Assembly (NCBI GenBank): GCA_016208915.1
Contig: JACQXE010000025.1
Location: 1-38,548 of the forward strand
From: Nitrospirota bacterium
Lineage (GTDB): Bacteria; Nitrospirota; Thermodesulfovibrionia; Thermodesulfovibrionales; UBA1546
Length of the DNA: 38,548 bases
Direction of reading: 5' to 3'
This document shows positions 3,162-19,863 of the stretch, piece by piece. A model generated the notes under the pieces. It worked only from the letters and a program-made list of their open reading frames with translations. It did no database searches and was not told the DNA's origin. The position numbers and the translations under genes are program-made. Positions within the stretch are counted from its first letter, which is position 1, and each line of letters starts with the position of its first letter.

Positions 3162-4067
3162 ATGAAGAAAAAACCTCAGGCTAAAAAGGTTACGAAGAAA
3201 AAGACTGGCAAGAAGATAACAAAAAAATCCGTCAAAAAACCGGTTATAAAAACAAAGAAGAAAACTGCAACAATAGAAAAAACAACAAAAGAAACTAAAA
3301 AGCTAATTGAGAAAGCCGGCCCCAAAAAACCTGAGAAGAAAAAAGAGAAGCCTGCAAAAACCGCAACAAAAGAAACTAAAAAACCAGTTGAGAAAGCCAG
3401 CAAAAAACCCCCTGAGGGAAAAAAAGAAAAACATCCAAAAGCTGCCAAGAAAGAAGAAAAAGCGAAAAAACCTGCAAAAAAGCTAAAACCAAAAACCGCT
3501 AAAAAAACTCTCCCAAAAAAGACAACAATACTAAAAACAATCAGCAAAAAAGAGCTTAAAACAATTGCCATCCCTAAAAAAAAGGCGACAAAAATACCTG
3601 AAAGAACAATAGGACTCGACCTCAACATCTCAGCTGTCAAACCATTACCAGAAAAGAAATATCCCGTGGTTACAGTAAAGGGAAAGCTCCTGCCTGAATA
3701 CAGGGAGGACAGGATTACATTGATGGTAGTTGATCCATGGAAGATCTTCGCATACTGGGAAGTGAAACCAGATACCCTCGCAAAGATAAAAGGCGCTCTT
3801 GTCTTAAGGATATATGATGTGACAGGTGTAATCTTTGACGGCAAGAATGCAAATATCAGCTTCGACATAGCAGTTCATGAAAGAGTAGGAGACAGTTATA
3901 TAGGCGTAAGACCAGGAAGAGGGTTTTTTGTTGATATAGGCATCATACCGTATATCGGAAATTTCATAACAATTGCAAGATCAAACAGGGTAATCACCCC
4001 TGCATTAAAAGAAGACAGTAGCGCGTTCAATGAGATATATGCAACAAGCCCTACAGGCGGCTTCTAA
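3162..4067 (+). CDS. Lysine-rich, histone H1-like tail fused to a DUF4912 domain
   Basis: The 301-residue protein is bipartite. Residues 1 to about 145 are almost only K, A, P, E and T in repeating KKPAK/KETKK blocks, resembling bacterial histone H1-like tails and likely disordered and able to bind nucleic acid. Residues about 150-301 form a compact DUF4912 domain (DRITLMVVDPWKIFAYWEV and RIYDVTG motifs, ending PTGGF). A strong AAGGGGGG ribosome site precedes the ATG. DUF4912 has no settled function; from family knowledge it occurs in Nitrospirota, Deltaproteobacteria and Firmicutes. The gene ends 36 bp from the convergent waaA. The low-complexity half produces a long open frame on the opposite strand that is not a gene. 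Confidence 0.85.
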   Translation: MKKKPQAKKVTKKKTGKKITKKSVKKPVIKTKKKTATIEKTTKETKKLIEKAGPKKPEKKKEKPAKTATKETKKPVEKASKKPPEGKKEKHPKAAKKEEKAKKPAKKLKPKTAKKTLPKKTTILKTISKKELKTIAIPKKKATKIPERTIGLDLNISAVKPLPEKKYPVVTVKGKLLPEYREDRITLMVVDPWKIFAYWEVKPDTLAKIKGALVLRIYDVTGVIFDGKNANISFDIAVHERVGDSYIGVRPGRGFFVDIGIIPYIGNFITIARSNRVITPALKEDSSAFNEIYATSPTGGF

Positions 4068-14088: not shown

Positions 14089-14118
14089 TTGACATAATTC
14101 TACTTTTAATGTTATTAA
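14089..14118 (+). promoter_or_regulatory. Candidate sigma-70 promoter of the rnf operon
   Basis: A perfect -35 TTGACA (14089-14094) is followed after 18 bp by TATTAA (14113-14118), a 4/6 match to the -10 consensus. Transcription would start near 14125, giving a leader of about 38 bases with the AGGAGG site before rnfC. Confidence 0.5.
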
Positions 14119-14162
14119 TTATAAGTTTTTTGCCGGCTATCTTCCTCAGGAGGATTTTTAAA

Positions 14163-15470
14163 ATGGCTCTTGCAACATTTAAAGGCGGCGTACATCCGCC
14201 TGATAAAAAGGAACTTGCTAAAAACGAGCCAATAAAAGAAGCAAAGTCTCCCCAGAGAGTCTTAATCCCCTTAAGTCAGCACTTAGGAGCGCCGTGCAAA
14301 TCTATAGTATCCATCGGGCAAGAAGTAAAAAAAGGAGAGATGATAGGTGAAGCCGGAGGTTTTGTTTCTGCTCCGGTTCATTCATCTGTATCAGGCAAAG
14401 TAATTGCTATCGGGGATTTTCCGAATGCTATGGGCAAGATGGTCACATCAATTGTAATAGAGAATGACGGAAAAGAAGAATGGACTAATATAAAAGACAA
14501 TCCGGATTATATAAAACTCTCTCCTGAAGAGCTGAAAGAAAAGATTAAGGCAGCAGGCATCGTCGGAATGGGAGGAGCTGCGTTCCCTACACTTGTAAAA
14601 CTTTCTCCCCCGAAGGAAAAACCAATAGATACAGTAATAATCAATGGAGCGGAATGCGAGCCGTATCTTACTGCAGACTACAGATTAATGATAGAAAAGC
14701 CAAAAGAGATAATAGAAGGCCTGAAGATTCTGATGAAGGTGCTGAATGTAAATAAGGGCTTTGTGGGCATAGAAGATAACAAGCCTGATGCTGTTCAGAA
14801 GATGAAAGAGGCAGCAAAGAACGAGCCAAACATAGAAGTCCTTGCGCTTGAGGTCAAATATCCCCAGGGCGCTGAGAAGATGCTGATACGGGCTGTTACA
14901 GGCAGGGAAGTTCCTCCGAGAGGGCTTCCAATGGATGTCAGCGTTGTTGTGCAGAATGTTGGAACTGCCTTGGCTGTATACGAAGCTGCGCGATATGGAA
15001 AGCCTTTGATAGAAAGGGTCGTTACTGTAACAGGTGAAGGGATAAACAGGCCTGCCAATCTGATGGTGAAGGTAGGAACACTGGTCTCAGACCTGATAGA
15101 GCAATGCGGTGGACTTAAAAACACTGCTGGCAAGGTAATATCAGGCGGGCCAATGATGGGTTTTGCCCTCTCTTCGCTTGACACCCCTGTAACAAAAGGC
15201 ACCTCAGGCATCCTTGCCCTTCCTGAAGAAGGCATTGCCCATGCAGAGGATTTCGGCCCGTGCATAAGATGCGGAAGGTGTATTGATATCTGTGCAATGG
15301 GTCTCATGCCCTCTATGCTGAGCATTCTTTCAGAAAGAGGCTTCTATGAAGATGCAAAAGAATACAATCTCTTTGACTGTTTTGAGTGCGGTTCCTGTGC
15401 ATTTGTCTGCCCTTCAAAGAGACCGATAGTTCAGCTTATAAGGCTGGCAAAATCTTTGGTGAAACCATAA
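14163..15470 (+). CDS. rnfC: Ion-translocating oxidoreductase complex subunit C
   Basis: RnfC is the peripheral subunit of the Rnf complex that exchanges electrons with NAD(H). It carries the conserved N-terminal TFKGGVHPPDKK segment and the NADH/FMN region with GMGGAAFPTLVK and NGAECEPYLTADYR. Two [4Fe-4S] motifs follow, CIRCGRCIDIC and CFECGSCAFVC. The start at 14163 has AGGAGG at a good distance; the ATG at 14109 would place the start inside the promoter. The length of about 435 residues is normal, without the long C-terminal repeats of proteobacterial RnfC. It opens the cluster in the order C-D-G-E-A-B, as in acetogens. Confidence 0.96.
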   Translation: MALATFKGGVHPPDKKELAKNEPIKEAKSPQRVLIPLSQHLGAPCKSIVSIGQEVKKGEMIGEAGGFVSAPVHSSVSGKVIAIGDFPNAMGKMVTSIVIENDGKEEWTNIKDNPDYIKLSPEELKEKIKAAGIVGMGGAAFPTLVKLSPPKEKPIDTVIINGAECEPYLTADYRLMIEKPKEIIEGLKILMKVLNVNKGFVGIEDNKPDAVQKMKEAAKNEPNIEVLALEVKYPQGAEKMLIRAVTGREVPPRGLPMDVSVVVQNVGTALAVYEAARYGKPLIERVVTVTGEGINRPANLMVKVGTLVSDLIEQCGGLKNTAGKVISGGPMMGFALSSLDTPVTKGTSGILALPEEGIAHAEDFGPCIRCGRCIDICAMGLMPSMLSILSERGFYEDAKEYNLFDCFECGSCAFVCPSKRPIVQLIRLAKSLVKP

Positions 15471-15477
15471 GAAAAGT

Positions 15478-15536
15478 GTCCGTGACAGTTAACAGTGTCA
15501 GTTACTGACACAGACACTAATTACTGACACTGATTT
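15478..15536. repeat. GTGTCAG/CTGACAC inverted repeats between rnfC and rnfD
   Basis: The 76-bp gap contains AGTGTCAGTTACTGACAC followed by AGACACTAATTACTGACACT, so several copies of GTGTCAG and its complement overlap. The mRNA here could fold into alternative hairpins just before the rnfD ribosome site TTGGAGG. A related repeat occurs before gapA (29052-29113). Confidence 0.65.
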
Positions 15537-15546
15537 TGGAGGTTAA

Positions 15547-16581
15547 ATGGCTGATACAAAAAAAGAACATGAACTGATAGTCACAGTAAGCCCGCATATT
15601 AAGGACGAAGAGACCACCAGCAGGATCATGTGGAGCGTGAACCTTTCTCTGCTCCCTGCAGTTCTGATGGGTGCGTATTTCTTCGGGCCTAAAGCCGTGT
15701 TTACGATGGCTCTTTCAATAATCTCTGCTGTGCTGTCTGAATACATATATCAGAAGGCATTAAACAAAAAAGTCGCCATTAATGACGGAAGCGCATTTCT
15801 AACAGGATTGCTGCTCGGCATGAATCTGCCTGCATCAGTTCCTTTTTATATACCTATCATAGGCTCTGCTGTTGCAATAGTCATTACAAAACAGCTCTTC
15901 GGAGGACTTGGGTTTAATGTGTTCAACCCTGCCCTTATCGGAAGGGCATTCCTGCTTATATCGTTCCCTAAACTGATGACCATATGGACACAACCTGATG
16001 CTGCATTTGTATATCTTGATGCTAAGACAACAGCCACCCCTCTGGGAATACTTAAGGAAGAAGGCATTTCAAAACTGATAGAGATATTTGGAGACAAGAT
16101 GAACCTTTATGTCGAGCTTCTGAAAGGTCACAGGGCAGGCTCAATAGGAGAGACCTCAGCAATTGCACTGCTCATTGGCGCAGCATTTCTTCTTTATAAG
16201 AGATATATAACATGGCATATACCTGTGTCATTTCTCGGAACCGCTACTTTGATTGCATATATATTTGGAGGCAAGAGCGCTGAGACAGGCAAGATGATTC
16301 TGTTCGCAGGCGATCCGGTACTGCACCTTATCAGCGGTGGACTTATACTCGGTGCATTTTTCATGGCAACAGATTACGTCACATGCCCTTCTGTTAAAAA
16401 AGGGCAGATTCTTTTCGGTATCGGCTGCGGCTTCCTCACAATGCTTATAAGAATTAAAGGCGGCTTTCCTGAAGGTGTAATGTTCGCAATACTGATAATG
16501 AACTGTTTTGCTCCTCTGATTGATAGAGGATTTAAGTCGAGGGTCTTTGGAGCGGTTAAGATAAAGGAGAGCAAGAAATGA
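15547..16581 (+). CDS. rnfD: Ion-translocating oxidoreductase complex subunit D
   Basis: RnfD is a membrane subunit (344 residues, about nine or ten helices) with covalent FMN. The expected flavin-attachment threonine lies in KTTATPLG, and the conserved segments GLGFNVFNPALIGRAFLL and MATDYVTCP are present. A GGAGG site lies seven bases before the ATG. The stop overlaps the rnfG start (ATGA), indicating translational coupling. It belongs to the NqrB/RnfD family and is thought to be part of the ion path. Confidence 0.95.
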   Translation: MADTKKEHELIVTVSPHIKDEETTSRIMWSVNLSLLPAVLMGAYFFGPKAVFTMALSIISAVLSEYIYQKALNKKVAINDGSAFLTGLLLGMNLPASVPFYIPIIGSAVAIVITKQLFGGLGFNVFNPALIGRAFLLISFPKLMTIWTQPDAAFVYLDAKTTATPLGILKEEGISKLIEIFGDKMNLYVELLKGHRAGSIGETSAIALLIGAAFLLYKRYITWHIPVSFLGTATLIAYIFGGKSAETGKMILFAGDPVLHLISGGLILGAFFMATDYVTCPSVKKGQILFGIGCGFLTMLIRIKGGFPEGVMFAILIMNCFAPLIDRGFKSRVFGAVKIKESKK

Positions 16582-17168
16582 CAGGCAAGGACATTATAAA
16601 GATAACCCTGAATCTTGTTATTGTATATGTTGTCGGCGGGCTTATCCTTGCTTTTGTATATGCCAAGACATCGCCCATCATGTTTAAAAACGCTGTTATC
16701 GCAAAAGAAAAGGCTCTCAAGGCACTCGTGCCTGACGCAGACAAGATAGAGAAGATGGGGGACTGGACTATACATGAAAAGCATGCTGAATATTTTATTG
16801 CAAAAAAGGGAAGCGAGACTATCGGATATGTTGTACAGTCATTCGGGAAAGGCTATTCAAGCTATATCAATACCCTTGTAGCAGTTGATAAGGACTTTAA
16901 GGTGCAGAAGATTAATATTCTGAGCCACGCAGAGACCCCGGGACTGGGAGACGAAATAGAGTATGATTATTTCAAAAACCAGTTCAAAGATAAAGACATT
17001 GAACATTTGAAGGTTCTTAAAACAGAGACTACAGAATATATACAGGCCATCTCAGGTGCAACCATCTCGAGCCGTGCGGTCACCGAGGACGCGGTAAAGA
17101 ACGGTGTCGCATTTCTGATCAAGACAGTCAAGGAAGGAAGCAATACTGATGTCAAGCAACAGCATTAG
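16578..17168 (+). CDS. rnfG: Ion-translocating oxidoreductase complex subunit G
   Basis: RnfG (196 residues) has one N-terminal membrane helix (VIVYVVGGLILAFVYAKT) and a periplasmic FMN-binding domain. The covalent-flavin motif is SGATISSRAV, and HAETPGLGDEI is conserved. It starts through a 4-bp overlap with rnfD and overlaps rnfE by 20 bp. Confidence 0.95.
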   Translation: MTGKDIIKITLNLVIVYVVGGLILAFVYAKTSPIMFKNAVIAKEKALKALVPDADKIEKMGDWTIHEKHAEYFIAKKGSETIGYVVQSFGKGYSSYINTLVAVDKDFKVQKINILSHAETPGLGDEIEYDYFKNQFKDKDIEHLKVLKTETTEYIQAISGATISSRAVTEDAVKNGVAFLIKTVKEGSNTDVKQQH

Positions 17169-17802
17169 TCTCAAAGAATTATTTTTAAACGGGATTATTA
17201 AAGAGAATACGATCTTCAAGCTCGCCCTCAGCCTCTGTCCTTCGATTGCTGTTACAAACAATCTGAAGAACGGGATATTTATGGGACTGGCAGTACTGTT
17301 TGTCCAGACCATGGTGAACATTACCATCTCCCTGATGAGAAAGGTCATCCAGCCCAAAGTAAGGCTGCCGATCTTCATGCTCGTCATCTCCGGGTGGGTC
17401 ACGATAACGCAAATGATGATGGCTGCTTTCGTCCCGGACGTTTATGCTAAGGTGGGTCTCTATATCGCCCTGATCGTTGCTTTTGCTTCGATCCTGGCAA
17501 GGGCGGAGATGTTTGCAAGCAAGAACAGTATTATGCCGTCAATGGTCGATGGCCTCGGTATGGGTGTCGGGTTCCTGTTTGCACTCACGGTCATCAGCTT
17601 TTTCAGAGAGTTGGTTGGTAAGGGAACGCTGACCGTCCCTACAGGGTTGGCAACGCAGCATGTTTTTACCTTCATTAATACAAAACCGCTATTGATAATG
17701 GTTCTGCCTGCAGGAGGTTTTCTGGCTGTGGGAATATTAATGGCAGCATTTAACTGGCTTGATGCAAAATATTTGAATAAAGGCTCGCATGGCGCACATT
17801 AA
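17149..17802 (+). CDS. rnfE: Ion-translocating oxidoreductase complex subunit E
   Basis: RnfE (217 residues) is an integral membrane subunit with six predicted helices. The family motif LALSLCPSIAVTNNLKNG near the N-terminus and the GLGMGVGFLFAL segment are visible. It resembles RnfA and NqrD/NqrE, and together they form the pseudo-symmetric membrane core. The start lies within rnfG. Codon choice here and in the first half of rnfA looks richer in G and C at third positions than in rnfD or rnfG, which may hint at local recombination. Confidence 0.95.
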   Translation: MSSNSISLKELFLNGIIKENTIFKLALSLCPSIAVTNNLKNGIFMGLAVLFVQTMVNITISLMRKVIQPKVRLPIFMLVISGWVTITQMMMAAFVPDVYAKVGLYIALIVAFASILARAEMFASKNSIMPSMVDGLGMGVGFLFALTVISFFRELVGKGTLTVPTGLATQHVFTFINTKPLLIMVLPAGGFLAVGILMAAFNWLDAKYLNKGSHGAH

Positions 17803-17814
17803 AAGGAGGCAAAA

Positions 17815-18405
17815 ATGAGTGAATTTATAAAGCTGTTTGAACTGATAATATCAGCCTCGTTGATAAATAATTTTGTCTTCACGAGATTCCTGGGGCTCTG
17901 CATCTTCTTTGGCGTCTCGAAAAAGATGGAGACTGCCGTAGGCATGAGCATTACCTTTACTTCAGTTATGATGATAAGCGCGGCAGCTAGTTGGGTTATC
18001 TTCACCAAAGTTCTGGTTCCGCTCGAGATTACGTTTCTGGAGATCATTGTGTTCATCGGCGTTATAGCAGGGCTTGTGCAGGCGTCAGATACAATAATGA
18101 AGAAGGTGTCGCCGGGACTTTATTATAAACTGGGCATCTACCTTGCCCTTATATCAACAAACTGTATCATACTTGCAGTCCCGCTTATTAATGCAGGGGA
18201 GAAATACACTTTTATTCAGAGCCTTGCATTCGGGCTTGGTTCAGGCTTAGGATTTGCCCTCGCATTAATAATAATGGCCAGCATCCGTGAAAAACTCGAG
18301 CTTGCAGACGTGCCGGCTCCGTTTAAGGGGTTGCCAATGGCCTTTATGATTGCCGGTTTGATCGCACTGGCATTTACAGGTTTTTCAGGGCTGATTACGC
18401 TATAA
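17815..18405 (+). CDS. rnfA: Ion-translocating oxidoreductase complex subunit A
   Basis: RnfA (196 residues) is the second six-helix core subunit. Family motifs are NNFVFTRFLGLCIFFGVSKK at the N-terminus, STNCIILAVPLIN and the GSGLGFALAL segment. A strong AAAGGAGG site precedes the ATG 12 bp after rnfE ends. The conserved cysteines in LGLC and TNC probably help bind the membrane-embedded iron-sulfur centre described in Rnf/Nqr structures. Confidence 0.95.
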   Translation: MSEFIKLFELIISASLINNFVFTRFLGLCIFFGVSKKMETAVGMSITFTSVMMISAAASWVIFTKVLVPLEITFLEIIVFIGVIAGLVQASDTIMKKVSPGLYYKLGIYLALISTNCIILAVPLINAGEKYTFIQSLAFGLGSGLGFALALIIMASIREKLELADVPAPFKGLPMAFMIAGLIALAFTGFSGLITL

Positions 18406-18481
18406 ATAAAGGGTTCGAGGGTTCAAGTGGTCAGGCGAGTCAACGAACCTTGCATGTTATTATAAAGAAGGAGCAAAAACG

Positions 18482-19687
18482 ATGTTTAAAGGAAGTTCTA
18501 AAATTCGGAAAACTTTTCCTTCTGCACTTCCGTACGTCCGTACTTTTGTGCTTTTGCTCTTTTGCACTTTGGTATTTTGGCACTTTGGCGCTATTGTCTT
18601 CGCCGGAGTTGGAGGAGGTGTAGAGGCCAAAGAAAAGGTTGATTTAATCCCCCTCATAAAATTTTCCCTGATGTTTCTTGCAGGAATAGCCGTTGTTTTT
18701 GGTATTGTGCTGGCATTGGCAGCCAAAAAGTTTGCTGTCCAGACCGACCCACGGGTAGAACAGGTGCTGGATGTCCTTGCCCATGCTCATTGCAGCGCCT
18801 GCGGATATGCTGGCTGTGAGCAGTATGCAGAGGCTGTTGTTAAAAACCCTGATGTCGCGCCGAATCTGTGCATCCCTGCAGGTGCAAAAAGCGCTGAGGC
18901 AGTTGCTTTGATTACCGGTAAAAAGGCAGAGATACGAGAACCTCAGTTTGCACGAATCATGTGCCAGGGCGGATGGTCAAAGTCTGTAAAGAAGTTCAGG
19001 TACGAAGGTGTGCAGGACTGCAGGGCTGCAATACTTGCAGGAGGCGGTGACAAAGCATGCAGGTACGGATGTCTGGGGTATGGCACATGCTCAAAGGTAT
19101 GTCCGTTTGGAGCAATAACAATGACTGAGGACCATCTTCCTTTTGTTGATATAACAAAATGCACAGGATGCAGAAAGTGCGAGACAGCATGTCCTGTCAA
19201 GGTCATTGAGGTAGTGCCTGCATCAAAACAGGTATTGGTTACATGCCATTCAAAGGACAAAGGCGGAGACACAAGAAAGAATTGTCAGGTGGGCTGCATT
19301 GCATGCGGGATATGCGTGAAAGTATGCCCTTACGATGCGCCTTCAGTAACAAATAACCTTTCAAAGATAGATACCAGTAAATGCAGGGTTTGCGGTCTTT
19401 GCGTGACAAAATGTCCTACAAAGGCCATCAGGGATTTCATACCTCACAGGTCAACGGCATATGTGATGGATAACTGCATTGGCTGCCATTCCTGCGCAAA
19501 GGTATGCCCTGTTAATGCGCCTTCAGGCGAACAGAAGAAAAAACATGCAATAGACCAGAATAAATGCATTGGATGCGGCATCTGCACTGCAAAATGTCCT
19601 GTACAGGCAATAAACGGCACATTCAATGCACAGGAGATCTTTGCAGCCGCAGCAGCAAAAAAACAGAAAAAAGCTGAAGCAGCATAA
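18482..19687 (+). CDS. rnfB: Ion-translocating oxidoreductase complex subunit B, cluster-rich form
   Basis: RnfB receives electrons from ferredoxin and passes them into the Rnf core. The 401-residue protein has a normal membrane helix (about 58-80) and the N-terminal cluster motif C104-x2-C107-x4-C112 with C130. Six further four-cysteine groups lie around 193-207, 227-237, 272-282, 301-311, 332-342 and 362-372. Seven [4Fe-4S] clusters would be more than in proteobacterial RnfB and near the upper end for acetogen-type forms. The ATG at 18482 has an AAGGAG site. Residues 1-50 are unusual, with an extra hydrophobic stretch (FVLLLFCTLVFWHFGAIVFA) encoded by a low-complexity repeat (see 18505-18600). 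If that is not translated, the next ATG is at residue 63, inside the normal helix. The tail is rich in Ala and Lys. Confidence 0.94.
   Translation: MFKGSSKIRKTFPSALPYVRTFVLLLFCTLVFWHFGAIVFAGVGGGVEAKEKVDLIPLIKFSLMFLAGIAVVFGIVLALAAKKFAVQTDPRVEQVLDVLAHAHCSACGYAGCEQYAEAVVKNPDVAPNLCIPAGAKSAEAVALITGKKAEIREPQFARIMCQGGWSKSVKKFRYEGVQDCRAAILAGGGDKACRYGCLGYGTCSKVCPFGAITMTEDHLPFVDITKCTGCRKCETACPVKVIEVVPASKQVLVTCHSKDKGGDTRKNCQVGCIACGICVKVCPYDAPSVTNNLSKIDTSKCRVCGLCVTKCPTKAIRDFIPHRSTAYVMDNCIGCHSCAKVCPVNAPSGEQKKKHAIDQNKCIGCGICTAKCPVQAINGTFNAQEIFAAAAAKKQKKAEAA
18505..18600. repeat. Low-complexity CTTTTGCACTTTGG-type repeat in the 5' end of rnfB
   Basis: Degenerate tandem units such as CTTCCGTACGTCCGTACTTT, GTGCTTTTGCTCTTTTGCAC and TTTGGTATTTTGGCACTTTG fill this stretch. 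The opposite strand would read as KVQKSKST-type low complexity. Here the plus strand is read in frame and supplies an additional hydrophobic segment of RnfB. Confidence 0.65.
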
Positions 19688-19700
19688 AGAAACTAATTCT

Positions 19701-19757
19701 GTCATTCCCGCCTTCGCGGGAATCCAGAAAAAGATTCCGTGTCAAGCACGGAATGAC
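19701..19757. repeat. GTCATTCC...GGAATGAC element after rnfB
   Basis: The 57-bp inverted element begins GTCATTCCCGCCTTCGCGGG and ends in CAAGCACGGAATGAC, with AATCCAGAAAAAGATT in the middle. It lies 13 bp after the rnfB stop and may act as an mRNA 3' hairpin. A run of TTAACTTT-type units follows at about 19813-19855, just before the tRNA. Confidence 0.8.
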
Positions 19758-19863
19758 TAATCAAAGACTATAGCTTAAAAAGCCCTCATTTGATATTATT
19801 AATAGACTATTTTTACATTAACTTTTAACTTTAAACTTTTCACTCTTAACTTGCTTTTCCCCT

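Follow-up and report, generated by a model that had tools for sequence, protein, structure and literature searches.

A dispersed degenerate octamer repeat in the signal-peptide-like leader of RnfB in an uncultured Nitrospirota lineage

The best-known examples of dispersed repeats lying in frame within protein genes come from Rickettsia and Wolbachia, and cyanobacterial genomes contain STRR sequences, degenerate 7-nt short tandem units that are dispersed in the genome and mainly intergenic. The Rickettsia palindromic elements (RPEs) are short dispersed repeats found in frame in unrelated metabolic genes, where they add a peptide to the product, other copies being intergenic; a review of them suggests that similar repeat-driven protein evolution may have occurred outside Rickettsia (PMC10969869). 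The P6b stem of the Nostoc tRNA-Leu intron consists of hairpins of degenerate 7-nt units, whose types have been repeatedly replaced between lineages (PMC4476775). Tandem repeats of Borg elements are reported to evolve rapidly, form independently and add new protein segments (PMC9879509).

We analysed a 38,548-nt stretch of Nitrospirota DNA (the window; contig C7 of genome G000, which comprises 2.51 Mb in 88 contigs) in which a degenerate octamer array is translated as part of rnfB. The repeats described below, with units of 6–8 nt in protein-coding genes and spacers, share with the Nostoc P6b heptanucleotide hairpins both the hairpin build and the replacement of units at a fixed place, whereas the Nostoc hairpins are intronic and untranslated. 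They are like the STRR, as these are described, in being dispersed degenerate units, but the phylum is another and the unit is 8 nt long rather than the 7 nt that defines that class. Borg repeats are direct, site-local and carried on extrachromosomal elements, whereas here one dispersed unit is common to many chromosomal genes.

The gene concerned (18482–19687, + strand, 401 aa) is the last of an rnfCDGEAB operon, with rnfC, rnfD, rnfG, rnfE and rnfA preceding it on the same strand (14109–18405, NCBIfam models). Its product matched NCBIfam NF005503 with E = 2.2e-88 and 296 bits (cut-off 252), exceeded the TIGR01944 rnfB cut-off and contained Pfam FeS and Fer4 domains; on the family profile, these Fe-S/ferredoxin domains and its place in the operon, it is the RnfB subunit of the Rnf complex. 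Among the upstream products, RnfC, RnfD and RnfG scored above their TIGR cut-offs and RnfE above that of NF009070, with RnfA just below its own. The closest RnfB relatives came from Nitrospirota metagenome genomes, many of them filed as Thermodesulfovibrionales. Several other repetitive stretches were seen in the window. A heptamer-like low-complexity stretch, GGTTCGAGGGTTCAAGTGG, occupies the rnfA–rnfB spacer (18411–18431, + strand), and the similar GATTCGAGGATTCGAGGGGTCGAG adjoins an octamer copy on contig C27 (locus L005). The rnfC–rnfD spacer holds an ACTGAC-type hexamer repeat (15482–15533) like the one occupying the core of the RnfB leader in some relatives, a TGTCATTCCCGCCTTCGCGGGAATCCAG palindrome that looks REP-like by eye lies just 3′ of rnfB (19698–19760), and two tandem 81-nt copies lie within a Lys-rich coding region (3283–3440).

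Alignment, Tandem Repeats Finder and synonymous recoding together delimit a degenerate octamer array, (CTTYTGCN)n, at 18511–18596 (+ strand), with its best part at 18543–18589, where Tandem Repeats Finder reported period-8 and period-16 rows. Seven 38-nt copies stand in register at 8-nt steps and are 61–76% alike. The initial annotation had placed the repeat at 18482–18640, an interval that covers the whole leader; the repeat proper fills only about 18511–18596 of it. Its reading of the degenerate units as translated from an ATG with a good ribosome site was borne out, with a Shine-Dalgarno AAGGAG (18468–18473, + strand) 8 nt before the ATG and the peptide FVLLLFCTLVFWHFGAIVF forming residues 22–40. 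Where Leu, Phe, Cys and Ala codons abound, a hydrophobic signal peptide might appear repetitive by chance, and 0.3% of synonymous recodings did equal the best consensus match. However, the lag-8 self-match was 31/40 against a mean of 19.5 after synonymous recoding of the same protein with the codons of the genome (P = 5e-5), and none of 20,000 codon-order shuffles reached the observed score. Lag-8 periodicity was also confined to two of about 169 other hydrophobic N-termini from the same loci and absent from the remaining 167 (two RnfB rows are counted on the RnfB side of this comparison), and a generic compositional bias of signal peptides was rejected on this ground. With the octamer also dispersed in the genome, the likelihood that the periodicity is accidental is practically negligible.

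Across the whole of G000, (CTTYTGCN)3 with up to 3 mismatches gave 79 matches, compared with 6 for a reversed control pattern. The octamer is a dispersed repeat family of this genome, the same unit recurring at many unrelated places beyond chance. Exact three-unit copies were present in 10 of 61 relatives and the control in none; among 296 genomes across the phylum, 15 of the window's class and 1 outside it had such copies, and none had the control. A strict 256-nt similarity search of the same genome retrieved the query alone; such a short degenerate unit must be sought as a pattern. A search of open-licence papers for octamer or palindromic repeats in Nitrospirae/Nitrospirota returned nothing relevant. 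CTTYTGCN is stop-free in all six frames, as are 46% of random octamers; its sense-strand peptides are hydrophobic (LLHFCTSA, LLLFCSSA; mean hydropathy, GRAVY, +1.75) and its antisense peptides hydrophilic (e.g. CRSAEVQK; GRAVY −2.05).

Most Thermodesulfovibrionia RnfB proteins begin at an aligned ATG after AAGGAG (AAGGAG or GAGGAG in most relatives). A K/R n-region leads into a hydrophobic core, and this into ...(V/L)(Y/F)A followed by GVGG. More than half of the relatives' equivalent leaders, ending in A/GVGG, have no detectable repeat. The proposal that a repeat supplies the hydrophobic core ahead of the normal RnfB helix stands, but the repeat did not create that segment, since most relatives have an equivalent leader; the comparison of RnfB N-termini that the initial annotation had called for does not bear out novelty by repeat. 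These alignments indicate that the leader predates the repeat, which would be a passenger in a pre-existing leader. The comparison also bears on the translation start. Initiation downstream, at M63 or at a GTG or TTG inside the array, would leave the repeat as mRNA leader only, the outcome foreseen initially for a start near residue 63; M63 is present, and the starts of the solved RnfB proteins fall at about query residue 55–60. Yet relatives keep both the Shine-Dalgarno sequence and the ATG at the aligned site, the near-invariant AGVGG (residues 41–45) and EAKE, both upstream of residue 63, are conserved as protein, and initiation at M63 would truncate the membrane helix. We rejected a start at residue 63 on this conservation across relatives and regard downstream initiation as extremely unlikely.

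Octamer periodicity (P ≤ 0.002) was found in 18 of 45 leader-type RnfB proteins and 0 of 19 others, with leader type assigned by a simple rule (an early basic residue, and A before GVGG) that also admits a few IPLP-like proteins to this type. On an RnfB tree built from the mature part of the protein, well-supported branches force at least eight changes of periodicity state. Across RnfB, the array takes three registers relative to the predicted cleavage site, and ACTGAC-type hexamers replace the octamer in near neighbours (L082 versus L092 and L042; also L075, L093 and L126). Judged from these comparisons, the RnfB leader core appears to be a hot spot for repeats, overwritten or colonised by the octamer. 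Short, apparently ancestral LLFCSSALYA leaders hold two octamer-like units, and the periodicity may be partly inherited and grown rather than newly invaded. A second type of RnfB N-terminus, lacking the basic start and ending in ..IPLP/(x)GVGG, was seen at L091, L095, L101, L102, L104 and L121, scattered on the tree among leader-type proteins.

The leader opens with a positively charged n-region, MFKGSSKIRK (18482–18511, + strand), as in the K/R-rich start of relatives (majority IKK). Its hydrophobic core (18545–18601, + strand), delimited by hydropathy and AlphaFold2 and encoded almost wholly by octamers, has a mean Kyte-Doolittle value of 2.39 over 19 aa, with the histidine and tryptophan of FWHFG making it less typical than the cores of relatives. 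Conservation and a break in the model place a predicted signal peptidase I site at A41/G42 (18599–18607, + strand; V39-F40-A41, then G42); in 44 aligned RnfB proteins, A41 occurs in at least 90% of rows and G42 is invariant. With K7, R9 and K10, the core at 22–40 and small residues at −3 (V39) and −1 (A41), the sequence has the features of a Sec signal peptide. The AlphaFold2 model, of moderate confidence (mean pLDDT 63.7), contains helices at 16–40 and 55–84 with a break at 41–54 (pLDDT <50 at 41–49). The second of these is the normal RnfB membrane helix (18644–18733, + strand), placed by the model and by solved RnfB chains, which align to the query only from residue 60–66 onward. The solved chains 7zc6 and 8ahx, which we take to be RnfB/RsxB of Clostridium tetanomorphum and its Azotobacter counterpart, are the same Rnf subunit, with one N-terminal helix and then Fe-S domains, but they lack the roughly 55 residues that precede the helix in the Thermodesulfovibrionia proteins.

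Normal RnfB has a single N-out/C-in helix. The most likely reading of the leader is a signal peptide, its predicted cleavage falling at A41/G42. If it were left uncut, it would stay as a second membrane helix in a two-helix hairpin with a cytosolic N-terminus, in line with the changed membrane topology that the initial annotation had considered. The two long AlphaFold2 helices and the length and hydropathy of the core are compatible with this, and relatives without the K/R n-region carry another segment (..IPLP/GVGG), so that some N-terminal segment may be useful in itself. An uncut anchor, however, would not need the V39-x-A41 small-residue pattern or the conservation of A41 and G42, and we consider a retained helix unlikely. 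The orientation of the working part would be unchanged in any case, because the Fe-S domain is cytosolic with either a cleaved signal peptide or an uncleaved hairpin; RnfB should stay N-out/C-in, and an altered topology is not supported.

The array might also act as a switch, either through slippage of 8-nt units that shifts the frame (phase variation), 8 not being divisible by 3, or through pairing with the ribosome site that controls translation, given that AAGGAGCAAAA (18468–18478) is 91% complementary to TTTTGCTCTTT within the array. Phase-variable simple sequence repeats consist of near-identical units able to slip, and the units here are too degenerate for frequent slippage. Pairing between the ribosome site and the coding region was no stronger than in shuffles, in the window (z −1.1) or in most of 23 relatives, and the fold of the whole leader was not significant (z −0.40). 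Sequestration of the ribosome site by the array was rejected on these duplex energies and this fold, and a switch of either kind is very unlikely. As a hairpin, the rnfB copy itself was not significant (z −1.58), and its classification as a full palindrome was likewise rejected.

About ten octamer copies of G000 lie in frame within conserved proteins. By Pfam, the hosts include TsaD, FolC, QueC, an MqnC/CofH-like radical SAM enzyme, an MFS transporter, CobA-HemD, HisG (at the N-terminus), a glutamate-synthase-like protein and a TPR membrane protein, with a phosphatase/transferase named by eye. TsaD (L212:1239–2288, contig C41, − strand) has two octamer arrays in one loop, inverted relative to each other and in frame, and in QueC (L217:1127–2071, contig C58, + strand) both an N-terminal SGVRGSGLGISSKNQSQNPNPQSRVP stretch and an octamer loop look like added repeats. 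TsaD relatives have other repeats or a repeat-free form of 331–333 aa, and the orthologous TsaD and QueC loops hold other repeat peptides (QPPLGKGGIEGG, CRIQDK..SCIMD, RITHYALRITHHALRIT, SPIPNPQSPIP) or none. At the DNA level, many of these inserts are hairpins in which tandem units make up the arms and the loop is A-rich (z down to −8), and the TsaD octamer copy is a significant palindrome (z −4.7). In genome G006, the QueC loop contains a hairpin element of about 72 bp, GGATACAGGATACA...TGCATCGTGCATCATGCATCC (e.g. contig C1:24432–24524), whose copies have common ends and number at least 41 or so in G006, at least 35 in G010 and 24 in G012; the window's genome has 8. The octamer is therefore one of several genuine families of dispersed elements. 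Another dispersed repeat, giving PPHPPLTKGGNEGG and PPLDKGGIKGG peptides, was seen beside the octamer in CobA-HemD (L225:429–2027, + strand) and a membrane protein (L204:254–2476, − strand). Judged on strong octamer copies only, the sense strand stands alone in the RnfB leader and in the membrane segment of the TPR protein, and in the loops of soluble enzymes the hydrophilic strand comes first (AEVQKSKSAEV...TSALL).

As with RPEs, repeats were found in frame in conserved genes and absent from orthologues, as seen in the TsaD and QueC alignments and in profile matches on the interrupted proteins. RPEs, however, are elements of about 150 bp, each with a conserved peptide, whereas here tandem 6–8-mers make up the arms, and the unit found at a given site varies from genome to genome. 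In rnfB only one arm is present, and we do not class this copy as an RPE because the palindrome test fails; the likeness is one of function and place rather than a comparison of sequences.

The best overall explanation, to which we assign a probability of about 0.72, is that a pre-existing signal-peptide-like leader had its core invaded by a dispersed octamer and tolerated it. RnfB would be made with a leader of residues 1–41 and probably inserted via Sec/YidC, after which signal peptidase I probably cuts at A41/G42, so that the N-out/C-in helix is preceded in the periplasm by a short acidic tail, GVGGGVEAKEKVD. The core of the older leader would later have been overwritten and lengthened by the lineage-specific dispersed CTTYTGCN, which it could tolerate because it need only stay hydrophobic and because the octamer, stop-free in every frame, gives peptides of the LLHFCTSA/LLLFCSSA type when read in sense. 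The octamer and other dispersed hairpin repeats with tandem 6–8-mer arms probably made their way into many genes, here and in related genomes, at places where the protein tolerates them, in soluble enzymes presumably at surface loops. As repeats seem to enter genes wherever they are tolerated, the RnfB case would be a tolerated invasion and not a new function, and the idea of the leader as a repeat-born novelty is corrected. The repeat, its dispersal, the conserved leader and the swapping of repeats at fixed sites are observed directly; the repeats are probably near-neutral, and their manner of spreading we infer.

A broader reading is more tentative, and we put it at somewhat below an even chance: Thermodesulfovibrionia may harbour a large system of short dispersed hairpin elements, their arms built of tandem oligomers, which time and again insert at fixed coding sites, including those of essential genes, grow there and supplant each other, with the RnfB leader as a hot spot. 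The fit would depend on the strand, the hydrophobic strand lying in signal peptides and membrane helices and the hydrophilic strand in loops, and the system would be a continuing source of new protein segments. Annotators should bear in mind that an odd insertion or a hydrophobic leader in these genomes may consist of repeat DNA. In-frame dispersed repeats are seen here in core enzymes of a free-living, uncultured Nitrospirota lineage. Because the repeat at an orthologous site differs between species, insertion, replacement and tolerance are directly comparable; the RnfB case is a sign of a wider, little-described process.
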